Origin: Balneolia bacterium
Lineage (GTDB): Bacteria > Bacteroidota > Rhodothermia > Balneolales > Cyclonatronaceae
Direction of reading: 5' to 3'
Assembly: GCA_003555145.1 (NCBI GenBank)
Contig: PWID01000170.1
Span: forward strand, 1-35,206
DNA: 35,206 bases
Shown: positions 16,381-35,206 of the stretch, one piece after another
Position numbering within the stretch: position 1 is the stretch's first letter
Layout: each line of letters opens with the position of its first letter
The notes under the pieces: generated by a model
The model's database searches: none
What the model was told of the DNA's origin: nothing
The model's input: the letters and a program-made list of their open reading frames with translations, nothing else
Position numbers and translations under genes: made by a program

Positions 16381-17997
16381 ATGGAAACTCTTTTAAACAT
16401 TACCATTTATTTGCCCCTTCTGGGCGTGCTGGCCATACTGCTCGCTAAGAGTGATGAGGCAATCAAATGGATTGCTTTGGCCATAACATCTCTCACGTTT
16501 GCTATTTCGCTTCCGTTGATATTCAATTTTGATGTCGCAAGTTCGGATGTAGCACAGTATGTAACCGAGTCAGGCCCGCTGGTATTTGGCCTGGATATAA
16601 AGTACATCGTTGGTCTGGATGGATTGAGCCTGCTTCTTTTCATGCTTACAACCTTCTTTGGTCCGATAGTTGTCCTCTCCGCCTGGACTTCGGTGAAAAA
16701 GCATGTAGCTGGTTTCTTTGCCATGCTTATGCTGCTTCAAACAGGTTCTCTGGGCGTTTTTGCATCACTCGATTTAGTTGTGTTTTACGTCTTTTTCGAG
16801 CTCACGCTTATCCCGATGTATTTCCTTATTGGTATCTGGGGCGGAGCAGACCGCATACAGGCAACTATTAAGTTTTTTCTCTATACGCTGGTCGGCTCGC
16901 TGATTATGCTTGTGGCGCTGGTTTATGTTGGTTATAACGCCGGCAACGTGTTAAACGACGGTGTTTTTCTTACCGACTGGAGAATGCTTTCAAGCATGGA
17001 TTATCAGCTTGGTCTGGTAGAACAAACCTGGCTGTTCCTCGCTTTTTCGCTGGCATTCTTCATTAAAGTTCCTCTTTTCCCGTTTCACACCTGGCTGCCT
17101 TACGCCCACACCGAAGCTCCAACAGCAGGTTCGGTTGTGCTGGCCGCGATTATGCTTAAAATGGGTACCTACGGCTTAATTCGCTTTTGCCTTCCGATGT
17201 TCCCGAACGCCATGATGGAGTTCGCGCCTATAATCGCATTCCTGTCTGTTATTGGCATTGTGTACGGGGCGCTTGTAGCAATGGTTCAAAAAGACGTAAA
17301 GAAGCTGGTTGCATACTCCTCGGTTAGTCACCTTGGTTTTGTGGTACTCGGCTTGTTTGCTCTTAACACTATTGGTGTTCAGGGAGCCATTATACAGATG
17401 ATTAACCACGGTCTGTCTACCGGAGCACTCTTCCTTATTGTGGGAATGATATACGACCGTCGTCACACCCGTCAGATTGAAGACTTCGGAGGTATTACGA
17501 GCGTGATGCCAATATTTGCCGTTTTCTTTATGCTTGCTACTTTTGCAAGTATTGGTCTGCCCGGCCTCAACGGTTTTGTGGGTGAGTTTCTAATTCTGAT
17601 GGGCGCTTTCACTTCTGAATCTATTGGAAATATCTGGTTTGCCATCGTAGCCACAACTGGCGTTATTCTGGCGGCCATTTATATGCTGTGGATGTTCCAG
17701 CGCGTGATGTTCGGTCCCGTAATTAAAGAAGAAAACAAGCTGCTCAAAGATCTTAATGCACGCGAAATCGGGCTGCTTATTCCGGTAATGATTTTCATCA
17801 TCTGGATTGGTATTCGCCCGACGCATTTCACACAGTATTCTGAACATCAGGTTGAAGTATTGCTCGAAGAGGCAGCGACTAAGCGAGCCTCAATACTCGA
17901 AGCTTCAAACCCTTCTGAACTGCCGGCATGGGCAAACCGCCTGTACGACATTACGCCAAACTACGCTGAACTATCCGGGGAGGATACCAATGAGTAA
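16381..17997 (+). CDS. nuoM: NADH-quinone oxidoreductase subunit M
   Basis: This is the middle antiporter-like subunit of complex I. From the ATG at 16381 (a TTG directly precedes it) it has 538 residues and about 14 membrane helices. Glu140 (VFFELTLIPMYFLIG) and Lys229 (FFIKVPLFPFHTWLP) are the conserved proton-path residues. The C-terminal 50 residues form a hydrophilic tail rich in Glu and Ala. The last 8 bases overlap the start of pcd, and the pcd Shine-Dalgarno lies inside the nuoM coding sequence. Confidence 0.97.
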   Translation: METLLNITIYLPLLGVLAILLAKSDEAIKWIALAITSLTFAISLPLIFNFDVASSDVAQYVTESGPLVFGLDIKYIVGLDGLSLLLFMLTTFFGPIVVLSAWTSVKKHVAGFFAMLMLLQTGSLGVFASLDLVVFYVFFELTLIPMYFLIGIWGGADRIQATIKFFLYTLVGSLIMLVALVYVGYNAGNVLNDGVFLTDWRMLSSMDYQLGLVEQTWLFLAFSLAFFIKVPLFPFHTWLPYAHTEAPTAGSVVLAAIMLKMGTYGLIRFCLPMFPNAMMEFAPIIAFLSVIGIVYGALVAMVQKDVKKLVAYSSVSHLGFVVLGLFALNTIGVQGAIIQMINHGLSTGALFLIVGMIYDRRHTRQIEDFGGITSVMPIFAVFFMLATFASIGLPGLNGFVGEFLILMGAFTSESIGNIWFAIVATTGVILAAIYMLWMFQRVMFGPVIKEENKLLKDLNAREIGLLIPVMIFIIWIGIRPTHFTQYSEHQVEVLLEEAATKRASILEASNPSELPAWANRLYDITPNYAELSGEDTNE

Positions 17998-18280
17998 CAA
18001 AGCCCTGAACAACGAAGAAATAAAAGAAGCCCTTTCTAAACTGGAAGGCTGGGAATTCGAGGATGATGCCATCACACTTGCGCTAACATTCGACGATTTC
18101 AGAGCGGCCATTTCCTTTATCGTAAGACTAAGCTTTGAGGCTGAAGAACTCGGGCATCACCCTGAGATAACCAATGTATATAATAACGTTGATATCCGCT
18201 TAACCACACACGACGCAGGTGATAAGGTTACCGCTAAAGACCTGGAGCTGGCGAAGCGAATCGATAATCTTGAAATGTAA
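17990..18280 (+). CDS. Pterin-4a-carbinolamine dehydratase within the complex I operon
   Basis: It dehydrates 4a-hydroxytetrahydropterin to quinonoid dihydropterin, recycling the cofactor of aromatic amino acid hydroxylases. The 96-residue protein has the family signature in one stretch: E, three residues, HHP, then Tyr, His and Asp at the expected spacing (EELGHHPEITNVY...H...D). I chose the ATG at 17990 because a strong GGAGG (17979-17983) lies six bases upstream and the resulting length fits the family; a longer frame reaching back to 17807 would overlap nuoM deeply. It overlaps the nuoM stop by 8 bases and precedes nuoN by 6. A pcd homologue among complex I genes was reported for Rhodothermus marinus; its role there is unclear. 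Confidence 0.93.
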   Translation: MSNKALNNEEIKEALSKLEGWEFEDDAITLALTFDDFRAAISFIVRLSFEAEELGHHPEITNVYNNVDIRLTTHDAGDKVTAKDLELAKRIDNLEM

Positions 18281-21070: not shown

Positions 21071-21105
21071 AAAAGGATACAGGCACTGCTTGTATCCTTT
21101 TTTTA
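21071..21105 (+). terminator. Terminator of rpsF-rpsR-rplI
   Basis: AAAAGGATACA (21071-21081) pairs with TGTATCCTTTT (21091-21101), and the T-run continues to 21104. The loop can extend the stem by three more pairs. Confidence 0.9.
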
Positions 21106-21209: not shown

Positions 21210-24200
21210 ATGGCCCACATCAAAACCCGAAGTACATTTTTTAGCTTTTGCCGGTACATCTTCCCGATTGTACCCATCGGTTTGTTGTGTTTGTTTTTTA
21301 TGATGCTATCCACGACCGAACTGTATGCCCAGTCCGGCGAATCAACGCATTCGGTGCTCCAAAAAGTGATTGTGCCCGAACCCGGGATTACCGAATATTT
21401 TCTAGATACTTGGGTTATAGCTTCGGCAATCATTATTGAAATAAACGGGGAGATTCTGGAAAAGGGTGAAGGGTGGACTTACGATGAGCTTACCGGGAAT
21501 ATTAGCTTTGGTGATGAAACATGGCTTGAAGTTCCTGAAATCGTGGTGAAATATCGAAGGCTTCCTGTAGGACTGAGACTTCAGTATTACGAACGGATTC
21601 TTGCGATACCCGATGAGCCATTAATTGCAGCAGGAGATACTACAATTGGAACAGGAGAAGACGTGTTCATTGGCCGTAGAACCACTCAGGCTGATTTGTT
21701 CGGAAGTTCCAGCCTTCAGCGCAGCGGCAGTATCAGCCGTGGGATAACGGTCGGAAGCAATCAGGATGCCTCACTGGAGAGCGGACTTAGGTTCGAGCTA
21801 AGTGGTAACATTACCGAAGATATTGAGGTGCGGGCTTCCCTCACCGATCAAAGTACTCCTATCCAGCCGGATGGGAGTACGCAGAACCTCCGGGAGTTCG
21901 ATCAGGTCTACATACGACTTCAGCACGAGCGGGGAGTGCTTCAGCTGGGGGATGTGGATGTAAGCCTTCGAAACAGTGAATTCGCGCAAATAGAGCGACG
22001 TCTTCAAGGCATAGAGGCACAGGCTGATTTTGGCTCTTCAGGAGCCTATCAGGCTTCGGCCTCGGTAGTGCGTGGCCGGTTTCGTTCCATGGAGTTCAGC
22101 GGAAGAAACGGAGTCCAGGGGCCGTACCGTCTTACGGGATCCGGCGGCGAAACCTTCATTATTGTACTGGCGGGAACCGAGCGAGTATATCTGAACGGTC
22201 AATTGCTTGTAAGGGGAGAGGAAAACGATTACATCATAGATTATGCGCTTGGGGAGCTTTTATTTACCAATCGCAGAATGATTTCGGATAACAGCCGTAT
22301 TACGGTCGATTTCCAGTATGTAACCGAAGAGTATAACCGTACGCTTTTAACATCTGAAGCAGGTACAACCCACCTTGCTAATGATCGTCTTGCGGTAGGC
22401 GCCACCTTTATACAGGAGTCGGACAGCCGTCAGCTTAATTCAGAAGTTGGTCTAACTGACGAAGAGCTAAGAGTTTTACGCGAGGCTGGCGCAGACCTGG
22501 ATAATGCCTTCATATCTGGTGCAGATTCTGTCGGATTCAGATCAAACGCAGATTTCATTCTGTACGCAAAAGCAGACACTACTTTTCAGGGACAGTCATT
22601 TGATATTTTTAAAGCAATGCCGGAGGACTCAAGCGCCGTATGGCGGGTTCGTTTTAGCCGGGTACAGGATGGAAACGGAAGCTACAGACGTTCGGAAAGC
22701 ACGCTTAATGGTATAGTGTACGAATGGGTTGGCCCGGGGCGGGGCGCGTACGAGCCATTCCGCCGTGTTCCTGCGCCGCAGCAGCAGAGGATGCTGGCCG
22801 TTAGAAGCCGTTATCAGCTTACAGAGCAGCTGGAGGTTTTTGGTGAAACGGCTTTTAGCGAACAGGATGTTAATCGTTTTTCGAGCGACAGCGAAACGCT
22901 TCAGCAGGCAATGGCTTACAAGGCTGGTTTCAGGATGAATCCCACAGAGACTCGCTTTGGATCCTTTCGCGCTACAGTACAAAGACGTGAAACACAGAGT
23001 GGATTCACCTTTTTCGACCGTACCCGCGATGTTGAGTTCGACCGCCGGTGGAATCTGCTGCCAACCGATGAAGCACGAGAAACCCTCACTGATGCAGAAA
23101 TCGGCCTGGATGTAAGTACTTTTTCAGGCTTTAGACTTGGTGCCGGACTTCTCGAGCGCCCCGATCTGAATTCATTCAGGACCTTTGCCAGACTATTCAC
23201 TGCAGAACCGGGCGGCCCCGAGTTTAATCAGACGGCAGATTATGTACAAAGCAGCTATCAGCTGAATAATCGTGACAGCGAATGGTTTCGCCAGAATAAC
23301 AGCCTTAGCTACAGCTTTGATCTTCTTGGGATCGGTTTCACGCCTTCTTTGGCTACAGAAGGAGAAATACGGTCACAAAAAGCAGTAGGCTCAGATTCGC
23401 TTGAAGCAGGATCTTTCCGGTTCTTGGAAGTAAGCCCGGGGCTCAATACGCTGTTATCAGATCAGGTGCAGCTTGGGCTGCTGCTCACGTACCGGAACGA
23501 CGACAGGGTAGACGCAGGTATGTTCGGAAATGAATCTGAAACCTGGACAGGGCAGCTTCGCACTACTTATACCCGAGACGAAAACCTGGAGCTGTCCGGC
23601 AGCGTTATTTACCGTGAAAAAAACTTCAGCAATTTGACGTTTACGGAGGGAGCCGAAACTCGGGCAACTTCAGTTCTTGTAAATACGACAGCCGATTACC
23701 GAACCACCGAACGCTGGCTGGATCTGCAGTGGCAGTATGAGGCCGGAACAGAAAATAAACCGTTGCTGCAGGAGACATATATAGAGGTTGGGCCAGAGCT
23801 TGGAAATTATGTTTGGGTAGATCTGAATGGAGACGGCGTACAGCAGATAGATGAATTCTTTCCTGCACAGACGCCAAACGAGGGCACATTTATACGACAG
23901 TTTGTACCCGGCGATGAGCTTATACCGGTGGTGAGTGTTAATACCAGACTACGGTCTCGCTTCGAACCAGGCAATCTTTTCGATAATCCTGCGTGGAATC
24001 ACGTTAGCCTTAGCTCGGCGCTTGAAATACGGGAACAGAACCAGGGTGGCAGTATCGCCGACATCTTATTACTCAATCTGAGTGAGTTTCTCGACGATGA
24101 AACGACGCTCGAAGGCCGGATTTTCTGGCAGCAGGAACTTCAGCTATTCAGACCAAACCGGGACGTAGACCTCAGAATCAGATATGATCAGTTAACCGGA

Positions 24201-24761
24201 AAGAACCAAAGGGCTACCGGTTTAGAGGAAATACGTAATAAGACGTTAAAATCAGATTTCAGCTACCGTCTCGGGCAGTTTACTCAGGCGGGGGTTGAAC
24301 TCACCTATTCAGAACAGGAATTGCTGAATGAAAGGTTAAGCACCCGTGCCTATCAAATCAGGAGTTATGAAGCGGAACCGTTCGTCCGATATTCTTTTTC
24401 AAGATCACTTCAAACGACTACCGGGCTAAGGTATGGCAGGAAAAGAGACGTGCTTCCTTCCGATCCTGTATTACTCACTCAATATCGTGTATATAGCGAT
24501 GTACGCTGGTTTTACAGGGGGCAGTTCCAAACGAATGCACGCGTTGAGTGGAGACAGAACAGGGCAGAAGGACAGAGCAGTAGTCTGGGATTATTCGAGC
24601 TAACAGACGGTGCCGGATTAGGCAATACCTGGCAGTGGTCGCTACAGGGAACCTACCGAATAAGTAGTTATTTAAGGGCCAATATTAATTACGATGGACG
24701 TACAGTAATAGGAGCGCCTGCTGTTCAGATTGTAAGGTTTACATTAAATGCGGTGTTTTAG
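21210..24761 (+). CDS. Large outer-membrane beta-barrel protein, SprA-like features
   Basis: This 1183-residue protein (from the ATG at 21210; a TTG precedes it) has a signal peptide ending near ELYAQS (about residue 42), few other hydrophobic helices and a dense pattern of alternating beta strands with Tyr/Arg/Asp. It ends in Phe, as many BAM-inserted barrels do. The segment near residues 170-240 (RGITVGSNQD, then LTDQSTPIQPDGSTQNL and REFDQVYIRL) recalls the segment I know from SprA/Sov, the T9SS outer-membrane translocon. The later GPYRL and AGTERVYLNGQLLVRGEENDY stretches also recall that group. SprA is about twice this length, so this could be a shorter relative rather than SprA. A DLNGDGVQQIDEF loop near residue 870 looks like a calcium-binding EF-hand-type loop. 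Function is inference. Confidence 0.7.
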   Translation: MAHIKTRSTFFSFCRYIFPIVPIGLLCLFFMMLSTTELYAQSGESTHSVLQKVIVPEPGITEYFLDTWVIASAIIIEINGEILEKGEGWTYDELTGNISFGDETWLEVPEIVVKYRRLPVGLRLQYYERILAIPDEPLIAAGDTTIGTGEDVFIGRRTTQADLFGSSSLQRSGSISRGITVGSNQDASLESGLRFELSGNITEDIEVRASLTDQSTPIQPDGSTQNLREFDQVYIRLQHERGVLQLGDVDVSLRNSEFAQIERRLQGIEAQADFGSSGAYQASASVVRGRFRSMEFSGRNGVQGPYRLTGSGGETFIIVLAGTERVYLNGQLLVRGEENDYIIDYALGELLFTNRRMISDNSRITVDFQYVTEEYNRTLLTSEAGTTHLANDRLAVGATFIQESDSRQLNSEVGLTDEELRVLREAGADLDNAFISGADSVGFRSNADFILYAKADTTFQGQSFDIFKAMPEDSSAVWRVRFSRVQDGNGSYRRSESTLNGIVYEWVGPGRGAYEPFRRVPAPQQQRMLAVRSRYQLTEQLEVFGETAFSEQDVNRFSSDSETLQQAMAYKAGFRMNPTETRFGSFRATVQRRETQSGFTFFDRTRDVEFDRRWNLLPTDEARETLTDAEIGLDVSTFSGFRLGAGLLERPDLNSFRTFARLFTAEPGGPEFNQTADYVQSSYQLNNRDSEWFRQNNSLSYSFDLLGIGFTPSLATEGEIRSQKAVGSDSLEAGSFRFLEVSPGLNTLLSDQVQLGLLLTYRNDDRVDAGMFGNESETWTGQLRTTYTRDENLELSGSVIYREKNFSNLTFTEGAETRATSVLVNTTADYRTTERWLDLQWQYEAGTENKPLLQETYIEVGPELGNYVWVDLNGDGVQQIDEFFPAQTPNEGTFIRQFVPGDELIPVVSVNTRLRSRFEPGNLFDNPAWNHVSLSSALEIREQNQGGSIADILLLNLSEFLDDETTLEGRIFWQQELQLFRPNRDVDLRIRYDQLTGKNQRATGLEEIRNKTLKSDFSYRLGQFTQAGVELTYSEQELLNERLSTRAYQIRSYEAEPFVRYSFSRSLQTTTGLRYGRKRDVLPSDPVLLTQYRVYSDVRWFYRGQFQTNARVEWRQNRAEGQSSSLGLFELTDGAGLGNTWQWSLQGTYRISSYLRANINYDGRTVIGAPAVQIVRFTLNAVF

Positions 24762-24847: not shown

Positions 24848-24876
24848 TTGACATTTAGATATAATTAATCTATAAT
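24848..24876 (+). promoter_or_regulatory. Promoter of the exbB-exbD cluster (classical sigma-70 consensus)
   Basis: TTGACA (24848-24853) is followed by exactly 17 bases and TATAAT (24871-24876), a perfect match to the classical consensus. The start point would be near 24883, giving a leader of about 50 bases to exbB, with CGGAG about 12 bases before the ATG. It differs from the TAnnTTTG type seen elsewhere in this window. Confidence 0.75.
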
Positions 24877-24931: not shown

Positions 24932-25651
24932 ATGACCTTCTCCTTTAGTGTTATCCTCATGCAGGTTTCTGCAGATTTGCAAAGTGAGGGCGCTTTTAGC
25001 CAGTTAGTACGATATTTTAACGAGGGTGGCCTGTTTATGTGGCCTGTACTCATTTGTGTGATCTTGGGACTGGCCATTTTCCTCGAGCGACTTGTAACTC
25101 TGAACCGCGCTGATATCGACACCAGACAGTTTATTGTGGACGTAAAAGAAGCCCTCGAAAATGGTGGAATTACAGCTGCTCAAGACTTATGTGCAAGTAC
25201 TCGTGGTCCTGTAGCCTCCGTTTTTAACGCTGGTCTTCTTCGTGCAGATGAAGGCTTTGAAGCTGCTGAAAAAGCCATTATATCTTACGGTTCTATCGAA
25301 ATGAGCTTCCTCGAAAGAGGACTTGTATGGTTGTCGCTATTTATTGCACTTGCCCCAATGATTGGATTTACCGGTACGGTAATTGGTATGGTTGAAGCTT
25401 TCGATGCTATCGAGAGCGCCGGCGATATCTCTCCAAGTATTGTAGCCGGTGGTATTAAAACTGCGCTCCTTACAACACTGGCCGGTCTGATCGGTGCTAT
25501 TATCCTTCAGGTAGGCTATAACTATTGCGTATCCAAAATCGACCGTCTTGTTGTTGACATGGAAGAAAGCTCAATAGTTCTTATCGATTCTATTTCAAAC
25601 CTTGAAAAAGGTAAGCCGATTACTGACATACCTGCAACACCGAGCGAGTAA
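24932..25651 (+). CDS. MotA/TolQ/ExbB proton-channel family protein
   Basis: This is an inner-membrane proton-channel subunit that, with ExbD-type partners, converts proton motive force into work on the outer membrane. The 239 residues show a first membrane helix near 35-52 (MWPVLICVILGLAIFLERL), a cytoplasmic domain of about 80 residues, and two further helices. FIALAPMIGFTGTVIGMVEAF (about 138-158) and AGGIKTALLTTLAGLIGAI carry the conserved Thr residues lining the channel. The start is the ATG at 24932; an in-frame Met at residue 10 is an alternative. It is separated from the next gene by a GC-rich hairpin, which could let it be made in excess over its partners, as ExbB pentamers require. 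Confidence 0.93.
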   Translation: MTFSFSVILMQVSADLQSEGAFSQLVRYFNEGGLFMWPVLICVILGLAIFLERLVTLNRADIDTRQFIVDVKEALENGGITAAQDLCASTRGPVASVFNAGLLRADEGFEAAEKAIISYGSIEMSFLERGLVWLSLFIALAPMIGFTGTVIGMVEAFDAIESAGDISPSIVAGGIKTALLTTLAGLIGAIILQVGYNYCVSKIDRLVVDMEESSIVLIDSISNLEKGKPITDIPATPSE

Positions 25652-25686
25652 ACTTAAAAGTAGCCGCTTTGATTATTAAGTGAACG

Positions 25687-25709
25687 GGCCGGGGTTAAAA
25701 GCCCCGGCC
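25687..25709 (+). other. GC-rich hairpin between exbB and the small membrane gene
   Basis: GGCCGGGG (25687-25694) pairs perfectly with CCCCGGCC (25702-25709) around a 7-base loop. No T-run follows, so it is unlikely to be a full terminator. It may stabilise or process the upstream exbB mRNA, or act as a weak terminator. Confidence 0.6.
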
Positions 25710-25783
25710 GGTTACTAAATCTCCGGTATACTTAGTTTAACTCTTCAATAACCGTCACGTAATCAATCAAATACATTACCATT

Positions 25784-26062
25784 ATGGAAGCTTTTTCCCA
25801 ATTTGCTCTCATCTTTACAATCGCCCTTTTGGTGATTTCTATACTGGGAGTTACTGTTTTTGGATTCAAAAACATTTTTCAGAGAAAACATAAGATTGGT
25901 CAGATTGCTTTTTTCTTCATTCCGGTTGCCGTTTTTGCAATCGCATACCTTGTTACAGGAATGATGGGAATTGCAGCTATTAATACACTGCTCATTATGA
26001 TCTCCCTTATGTTTCTTGGAATTTTGGTTTCAGGATCAAGAAGCCTTATCTCAAACTTTTAA
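25784..26062 (+). CDS. Small three-helix membrane protein of unknown function in the exbB-exbD cluster
   Basis: I do not recognise a named family. The 92-residue protein has three predicted membrane helices: about 5-27 (FALIFTIALLVISILGVTVF), 41-60 (IAFFFIPVAVFAIAYLVTG) and 62-83 (GIAAINTLLIMISLMFLGIL), joined by a short basic loop (QRKHKIGQ). It has no polar catalytic motif. It lies between the ExbB-like and the first ExbD-like gene, 18 bases before the latter, so it is probably an accessory membrane partner of the motor. It does not look like a diverged ExbD: it lacks the N-terminal helix with Asp and the periplasmic domain. Confidence 0.75.
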   Translation: MEAFSQFALIFTIALLVISILGVTVFGFKNIFQRKHKIGQIAFFFIPVAVFAIAYLVTGMMGIAAINTLLIMISLMFLGILVSGSRSLISNF

Positions 26063-26080
26063 ACAGAGGAACTCACCAAT

Positions 26081-26629
26081 ATGCTTAAAAAGAAAAGACC
26101 AAGAGAAGGAGCTGAAATACCATCTTCATCTCTCGCGGATATTGCGTTTCTTTTGCTGGTGTTCTTTCTCGTTGTTACCACTATCGACGTTGATACCGGT
26201 ATCGGCCTGGTGTTACCACCTCCGCCAGACCCGGAACAGCCACCACCCGAAGTTCGTGAGCGTAACATGCTTACTATCCTGATGAATGCTCAGGGAGCTA
26301 TTCTTATTAATGAAGAGCGTGCTTCTGTTCAGGACGTACAAGACCGCGTATTTCGCCATGTAACAAATAATGGTGAAAATCCGAATCTGTCTGAATCACC
26401 ACAGCAGGCTGTGGTCTCCATTAAAACGGATCGCCAAACCGAGTACGAGCGCTTTGTAGAAATGCTCGATGAAGTTATTGGCGCTTACCGCAGCATTTGG
26501 AGCACTGAAGCCAGACAGTTGGGCTACCGCGATTATCTTCAATACCGGACTGTTGAGGGCGAACCAAACCCAATCAGACGTCAGTTCCCGATGAACATCT
26601 CGCTGGCAGAACCTGATCCTGGATCTTAA
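26081..26629 (+). CDS. ExbD/TolR family protein (first copy)
   Basis: The 182 residues have the ExbD/TolR layout: a short basic cytoplasmic tail, one membrane helix (about 18-36) with the essential protonatable Asp20 (SSLADIAFLLLVFFLVV), then a periplasmic domain. A Pro-rich spacer (LPPPPDPEQPPPE, about 49-61) may work as a rigid stalk. The C-terminal 50 residues (about 135-182) are an extension beyond the usual periplasmic fold. GAGGAA lies 11 bases before the ATG. The second ExbD-like gene follows 20 bases later. Confidence 0.93.
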   Translation: MLKKKRPREGAEIPSSSLADIAFLLLVFFLVVTTIDVDTGIGLVLPPPPDPEQPPPEVRERNMLTILMNAQGAILINEERASVQDVQDRVFRHVTNNGENPNLSESPQQAVVSIKTDRQTEYERFVEMLDEVIGAYRSIWSTEARQLGYRDYLQYRTVEGEPNPIRRQFPMNISLAEPDPGS

Positions 26630-26649
26630 ACCTCAAATTGTACTAAACT

Positions 26650-27117
26650 ATGGCACATTTTAAAAAGAAACAGTCAGGTACGAGTCAGGAAATACCGACT
26701 ACATCCATGCCGGATATTATCTTTATCCTTTTGATTTTCTTCATGGTTGTAACGGTACTTCGCGAGGTTGAGCTTCTTGTTCGCCAGGATCTGACCGACG
26801 CTGAAAATATCGAACGTATTGAGGAGAAACGCCTTGTAAGCTATATTTACGTTGGCCCTCAGGTAGTCGCTCCGGGTGTGTACGGAGATACACGCGTTCA
26901 GGTTGATGATGCACTCGTCGATCCAAACGACTTCAGAGCAATTCAGAACGTAATGAGACAAAGACGAACAGACGAACCACGTCTTATTGTTTCTCTTCGC
27001 GTGGATTATGAGTCGGAAATGGGTATCGTAAGCGACATCAAACAAGAGCTCAGGCTCGCTGATGCGCTTCGTATCAACTATTCGACTCGTCGCGCCGAAG
27101 GTGCTACAGAGCTCTAA
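26650..27117 (+). CDS. ExbD/TolR family protein (second copy)
   Basis: The 155-residue protein has the same layout as its neighbour, with membrane Asp22 in MPDIIFILLIFFMVVT and a periplasmic domain ending in a sequence with SDIKQELRLADALRINYS, the family's C-terminal helix-strand unit. Sequence identity to the first copy is low outside the helix, so the two probably form a heterodimer or have distinct partners. It lacks the Pro-rich spacer. A terminator lies just downstream. Confidence 0.93.
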   Translation: MAHFKKKQSGTSQEIPTTSMPDIIFILLIFFMVVTVLREVELLVRQDLTDAENIERIEEKRLVSYIYVGPQVVAPGVYGDTRVQVDDALVDPNDFRAIQNVMRQRRTDEPRLIVSLRVDYESEMGIVSDIKQELRLADALRINYSTRRAEGATEL

Positions 27118-34355: not shown

Positions 34356-35206
34356 TTACTTCACAAGCATCATCTTCTGAACCTGTGTGAAGCTGCCCGC
34401 CTGTAAGCGATACAGATACACACCCGATGCCAGTCTGTTGGCGTCGAAGGTTACAGTATGGCGACCCGCGTTCTGCTGACCATTTACAAGTACGGCCACG
34501 CGCTGTCCCTGAAGGTTATAAACCTCAAGAGTAACGTTTGCTGCCTCAGGCAGGGCGTACATGATGTTGGTGGTCGGGTTGAACGGGTTCGGATAGTTCT
34601 GACCCAGCGCGAACTCGGTCGGCACATCCATTTCAGGATCAAGGCTTACCGGGGTGTCTTCGTTGTTAAAGAACACAACTTCCAGGCTATGATCTTCGCC
34701 GGTCATTTCTATTTGCCTGTTAGTGGAATCGCCTTCACCTACATCGTCGCTTTCCCAGCCGGTGTTCGGCAGTTCACGGCCATCGCCGGCAAGAATGTAG
34801 TACTTGTATTCATGCATATCACCAGCTTCACCGGGCAGCTCATGCGTGAAGCTGTAAATTCCATCTTGGTCGCCTGTTAAGGCCTCGCCTTCGATAACAG
34901 ACCAATCGTTGAACGAGCCGCGCACGTACACTTCATCACCCAGAGACGGGTCGAAGTTTCCGGCGGATTGCTGTACCGACATGTCTACACGGAAGGTGAT
35001 CATTTCCGAAGCAAGGTCTTCTTCCAATACTTCTATGCTCACCGGAATTACGCCTACAGGAGTGGCCGGGGAGTTGGTCGTAATTTGGATTTCGGCATTG
35101 TAACTGCCTGCTTCGAATTCGAAGGTGTTCACCTCAGCCATCACTTCCACGCTCTGACCCGCTTCGATGGTTCCTGCAGACGGTTCGAATACGAACAGCC
35201 CGTCTC
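34356..35206 (-). CDS. C-terminal part of a secreted protein with T9SS sorting domain (5' end outside window)
   Basis: The frame runs open to the window edge, so the N-terminus is missing; at least 282 codons are visible. Reading from the edge there is an Ig-like/BACON-type strand set ([15 protein letters not shown], then [21 protein letters not shown]). Next is a starch-binding-like E-set domain ([34 protein letters not shown]). Last is a type A T9SS sorting domain: [47 protein letters not shown], ending KMMLVK. Proteins of this layout are exported by T9SS and either released or anchored to the cell surface. The catalytic or main domain is upstream of the window, so the enzyme class is unknown. 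A terminator follows. Confidence 0.92.

Follow-up and report, generated by a model that had tools for sequence, protein, structure and literature searches.

The window, as we call the whole analysed stretch of 35,206 nucleotides, contains on its forward strand an open reading frame (21210..24761, +, ATG at 21210 and stop at 24761) which encodes a giant barrel protein of 1183 amino acids with orthologues of the same length, and the reverse strand across 21210-24761 is interrupted by stops throughout. The genes rpsF, rpsR and rplI are located upstream, and downstream are exbB, a gene for a membrane protein of 92 aa, exbD in two copies, a thiL-like member of the AIR synthase family and ftsH. The protein begins with a putative signal peptide (residues 1-42, 21210..21335, +), recognized by eye as a long hydrophobic run up to LYAQS, and continues with an N-terminal beta module (residues 50-115, 21357..21554, +), which appears as strands in the structural model and has weak likeness to the SprA module as a secondary hhalign match (P 0.0007). 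Predicted barrel strands 1-7 (residues 169-288, 21714..22073, +; AlphaFold2 model and alignments) precede a SprA-like module found by sequence comparison (residues 303-375, 22116..22334, +; QGPYRL...RGEENDYIIDY..., pLDDT below 50). The main barrel of the AlphaFold2 model, strands 8-38 (residues 377-1182, 22338..24755, +), includes an EF-hand-like loop, DLNGDGVQQIDE (residues 871-882, 23820..23855, +), and the last strand carries the terminal Phe of the outer membrane insertion signal type (24723..24758, +; sequence, model and family conservation). The reading frame, the signal-peptide-like N-terminus, the terminal Phe and the segments quoted in the first-pass annotation (TPIQPDGSTQNL, EFDQVYI, GPYRL and ERVYLNGQLLVRGEENDYIIDY) were all confirmed in the 1183-aa protein, and the barrel-like strands reported there correspond to long strands between residues 169 and 1182 in the AlphaFold2 model. 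Elsewhere in the window a protein of 96 aa, which by eye resembles pterin-4a-carbinolamine dehydratase, is encoded between nuoM-like and nuoN-like genes (17993-18280, +); a gene of the same size occupies this position in at least eight Balneolales loci.

The neighbouring motor cluster (exbB, the 92-aa membrane protein gene, exbD, exbD; 24932..27117, +) begins 170 bases downstream of the barrel gene, as had been correctly pointed out, together with the suggestion that this proton motor might energise the barrel. Ten Balneolales loci share the arrangement rplI - short barrel - exbB - small protein - exbD - exbD, and in some of them dsbD stands between rplI and the barrel gene. The protein could accordingly be imagined as a nutrient or polymer uptake pore powered by the adjacent ExbB-ExbD-ExbD motor, an explanation favoured by the adjacency of the two in 10/10 Balneolales loci compared. 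However, a sigma-70-type promoter situated about 55 bases ahead of exbB (TTGACA-17-TATAAT, 24848..24876, +, 12/12 consensus match) belongs to the motor itself: among the ten barrel-bearing loci it matches the consensus at 12/12 positions in eight and at 11 and 10 in the remaining two, and in an 11/12 form it is retained in three barrel-less loci. Promoters of this type are unusual in Bacteroidota in the narrow sense. A terminator-like hairpin after rplI, found by a consensus scan (21071..21101, +), sets the barrel gene apart from those for ribosomal proteins. Furthermore, in seven genomes the barrel gene is missing at exactly this locus (G061, G081, G108, G119, G227, G250 and G266; loci L147-L153) and the order is rplI - dsbD - exbB - exbD - exbD - thiL - ftsH, with the motor and its flanks intact, exbB 68-71% identical and, in two of the seven loci, a further short frame where the gap lies. 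The comparison of neighbours did not find the barrel beside the motor outside Balneolales, and Pfam detected no plug, TonB-receptor or SusC domain in the protein. Since exbB has its own promoter, a hairpin follows rplI and the motor persists intact without the barrel, the motor is not dedicated to the barrel, which looks like a unit of its own inserted between two others. The promoter, the intact motor in barrel-less loci and the neighbour comparison speak against energisation by the motor; we consider the uptake pore quite improbable and the adjacent ExbB/ExbD motor probably unrelated to the barrel, their adjacency being explained by chance linkage within a conserved block of housekeeping genes. 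The seven barrel-less loci, which come from three Balneolales genera keeping SprA, represent clean lineage-specific losses between dsbD and exbB, and such losses are suited to a comparison of surface proteins.

When the contigs of GTDB genomes were scanned with the 1183-aa protein as query, 22 relatives were obtained, mostly from Balneolia/Balneolales (35-80% identity), with others from Bacteroidales and Lutibacter (MAGs or genomes, 24-30% identity). The relatives align along the full length and the size is kept: in 90 sequences the family length is approximately 1130-1280 aa with a median of 1174, and 84 of the 86 long members end in Phe. The original remark that the protein has half the length of SprA (about 2400 residues) therefore stands, and as 1183 residues is the family's own length, it is not a truncated or damaged SprA. 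Conservation is highest in the SprA-like module, where mean majority identity reaches 0.73 at residues 301-350. No Pfam or NCBIfam model spans the short-barrel family, the best hits being weak local matches, and no account of it was found in the open-access literature; subscription papers and preprints were outside this search, and the family may already be noted elsewhere.

A resemblance to SprA had been claimed from the segments mentioned above, and it exceeds chance. The NCBIfam model TIGR04189 matches residues 319-406 only (88 residues, E 1.6e-5), with 22.3 bits against a curated cut-off of 200 bits, and the Pfam domain PF14349 (SprA_N) is absent at E 10. In profile-profile comparison the RGEENDYIIDY module was aligned to SprA with E 1e-6 (41 short and 21 SprA sequences), and in the larger set (90 and 41 sequences) residues 320-402 were aligned to SprA approximately 712-805 with E 1e-7, and further blocks were aligned in the same order as in SprA. 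The SprA module also matches models of phage tail tube and distal tail proteins (NF052337, TIGR02217; L003 residues 731-780, short barrel residues 319-406), weakly in the short barrel and more strongly in SprA, which hints that a small beta module is shared. As the module resembles phage tail proteins too, it is unfit as sole proof of SprA kinship. The blocks were consequently scored separately against controls, in order to see whether the likeness exceeds one mobile module; 30 SusC proteins of related genomes were used, after the LptD model PF04453, tried as a second barrel control, had given no matches in 25 related genomes. The N-terminal strands (residues 184-298) scored 30.0 against SprA 266-372, 17.9 against SusC and 20.1 against the rest of SprA (C-terminal half), and 60 column shuffles gave a maximum of 21.6 (mean 15.5, sd 2.3). 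By eye, SGLRFELSG.I.D..EV.ASL of the short barrel can be aligned with NLKLNIAG.IGDKL.I..DW of SprA, and LQLGDVDV...RRLQGI.A...FG with IELGNVS....GSLFGI.A...LG. The C-terminal block scored 47.3 with SprA vs 31.6 with SusC, a match which is only suggestive because it is shifted relative to the C-terminus of SprA. The LptD result is a separate observation: as PF04453 has no match in 25 Balneolia genomes, these must either encode a divergent LPS assembly protein or lack one.

These results have to be weighed against the possibility that the kinship is false and reflects a recurrent beta module combined with generic barrel composition. Besides the phage tail matches and the C-terminal block out of register with the end of SprA, it could be argued in favour of this explanation that PDB searches by sequence, with the single protein and with the family profile, retrieved no SprA chain or barrel relative. 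Yet the separate N-terminal block, in the same order, beats SusC, the other half of SprA and all 60 shuffles, and the predicted strand number is near that of SprA, hence we regard a false kinship as unlikely. The collinear profile similarity covers more than one module and exceeds that to other barrels; by its sequence, the short barrel is a remote, collinear homologue of SprA.

The AlphaFold2 model, calculated from a 21-sequence alignment, has a mean pLDDT of 70.7 and a pTM of 0.50, and residues 520-1180 are mostly above pLDDT 85. It contains 38 predicted strands, each 8 residues or longer, from position 169 to 1182, a count which omits an inserted beta domain (residues ~410-520); the closed barrel is putative. 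The conserved module (residues 289-375) has pLDDT below 50; a prediction of residues 145-545 alone, made for the fold of the module, was worse (pLDDT 56.1) and was discarded. The SprA barrel has 36 strands (PMC10994853). In Foldseek the first PDB match was SprA (6h3i, E 2.8e-9, TMq 0.25), directly followed by SusC entries (E 4e-9, TMq 0.12). Since SusC nearly equals SprA in this search, a large barrel is supported by it but not SprA specifically, and the structural pointer to SprA would be the predicted strand number, not Foldseek. A TonB-dependent receptor fold, named at the outset as the outcome that would speak against the SprA reading, is at odds with 38 predicted strands instead of 22 and with the Pfam search, in which no TonB-receptor or plug domain was detected.

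A full-length SprA is encoded elsewhere in this genome (contig C321, 5259-12374); it scored 1518 bits with TIGR04189 and contains PF14349 (E 9.9e-93), and the only other TIGR04189 match in the genome is the short barrel (25 bits). Type-A sorting domains were matched 61 times in this genome, which has in addition a GldL-like protein with a score below the cut-off. A T9SS cargo had been reported in the window, and it is indeed there (34356-35150, minus strand), with a type-A sorting domain and a possible starch-binding-like domain; no relation was found between this cargo gene and the barrel. Because the genome possesses a full-length SprA together with 61 type-A cargo signals, the short barrel is not its translocon. 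From the options originally offered, that of a paralogue agrees with the SprA encoded in the same genome, and that of a minimal T9SS translocon is not supported, as this genome and 172/173 other carriers possess full-length SprA and the short barrel reaches 22.3 of 200 bits. The short barrel is a second giant barrel in this genome.

In a sample of 296 Bacteroidota genomes, searched with the 21-sequence family profile at E 0.001, the family was found in 179, and 174 were counted as carriers (~60%) after five weak cases (E 1e-4 to 8e-4), all from one Balneolales genus, had been set negative; the short barrel is mostly single copy per genome. SprA was above the cut-off in 227 of these genomes: both proteins occur in 173, the short barrel only in 1, SprA only in 54 and neither in 68 (Fisher P 9e-32, a nominal value inflated by phylogeny). 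One family supplies 19 of the 20 SprA-negative genomes listed. The 54 SprA genomes without the short barrel indicate that type 9 secretion can do without it. Moreover, whole Balneolales genera have retained SprA and cargo but not the short barrel, and Balneolales that lost the barrel keep type A cargo (33 CTD matches in G108 and 9 in G227). In G269 (f21, locus L091), a closed genome of one contig, the short barrel and GldL are present, no SprA was found either by profile or by a SprA query of the same family, and the cargo signals amount to two weak type-A and one type-B; its T9SS seems to have lost its translocon. The short barrel goes with T9SS lineages, but the T9SS does not require it and its link to SprA is not strict. 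A link to type B CTD cargo was rejected: there is no correlation across the 296 genomes, some SprA genomes are rich in type B cargo yet have no short barrel (e.g. G130, G134, G182, G190), and most Rhodothermia carriers of the short barrel have few or no type B CTDs. A T9SS cargo gene stands immediately downstream of the barrel in L079 (type B) and in L094 and L095 (type A), in a small sample and in genomes where such cargo genes are common. A consistently adjacent partner, cargo or T9SS gene was not seen, and beyond Balneolales the neighbours vary, with only scattered conserved ones.

This lack of a conserved cargo neighbour would also suit a structural or adhesive giant barrel, a calcium-stabilised surface scaffold that transports nothing specific and is similar in kind to Deinococcus SlpA/SDBC. 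The EF-hand-like loop is almost invariant (D871 in 88/88, N873 in 83/88 and E882 in 87/88 sequences), coincides with a weak Pfam match to SdrD_B and is probably a calcium site within a long loop, and Foldseek also matches the short barrel to the SDBC and SlpA barrels of Deinococcus (8agd, 7zgx, 8ae1) with TM scores near that of SprA. Nevertheless, conservation peaks in the SprA-like module and not in the surface-type loop, Pfam finds no SLH or other cell-wall-binding domain, and the sequence kinship points to SprA; a pure scaffold appears to us a rather doubtful explanation.

We prefer to regard the protein as a predicted outer membrane barrel of approximately 36-38 strands, from a compact branch of the SprA superfamily, serving next to the type 9 system as an accessory channel for export or surface assembly, a reading to which we would give roughly even chances. 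The short barrel would represent an ancient, compact, single-copy side branch, an unnamed family of its own. It would be exported by Sec and inserted by BAM via its C-terminal Phe strand, and a very wide pore would result. Such a wide pore must be sealed. The prime candidates for a plug or docking site are QGPYRL, RGEENDYIIDY and EFDQV, the segments of highest conservation, and the RGEENDYIIDY module with the EFDQV/QGPY segments would probably serve as a luminal plug or docking site. Considering the kinship to SprA, the protein would most likely serve to move or assemble a large component of the surface; we infer that the accessory channel may pass a particular large folded surface component beside the type 9 system and that the general cargo set would stay with SprA. 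It is a more tentative proposal, for which we see perhaps one chance in three, that the family forms a second, Bacteroidota-wide export channel of the SprA superfamily, compact, with its own substrate class, and overlooked because there is no family model.

Type 9 secretion centres on the giant channel SprA. With a second family of like predicted strand number and remote kinship, Bacteroidota would have kept two giant pores, and the carriers, about 60% of the sampled Bacteroidota, include many tractable Flavobacteriaceae-like genomes. The question arises what a minimal SprA-type barrel does without the extra 1200 residues of SprA, and the family may offer a way into the question of how the T9SS translocon arose.

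Among the known systems, SusC/RagA and other TonB-dependent receptors are likewise large outer membrane barrels of Bacteroidota with similar Foldseek E-values, but they consist of 22 strands and a plug domain, whereas neither Pfam nor NCBIfam detects a TonB-receptor or plug domain in the short barrel, and its profile score against SusC is at background. Deinococcus SlpA/SDBC are very large barrels too and are linked to it by Foldseek matches, but they belong to another phylum, no sequence match to them was found, and the short barrel has no SLH domain. The closest likeness is to SprA/Sov (TIGR04189): both have a signal peptide (putative in the short barrel), a giant barrel of about 36-38 strands like that of SprA is predicted for the short barrel, both carry the N-terminal strand block and the RGE/DY..DY module in the same order, and both belong to the phylum Bacteroidota, where they almost always share a genome. 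The short barrel differs from SprA/Sov by its half length, its score below the TIGR04189 cut-off and its lack of PF14349 (SprA_N), it usually ends in Phe whereas the SprA sequences compared end differently, it is not required wherever SprA occurs, and no T9SS gene stands alongside. It shares superfamily and scale with SprA, and differs from it in length, distribution and presumably role.
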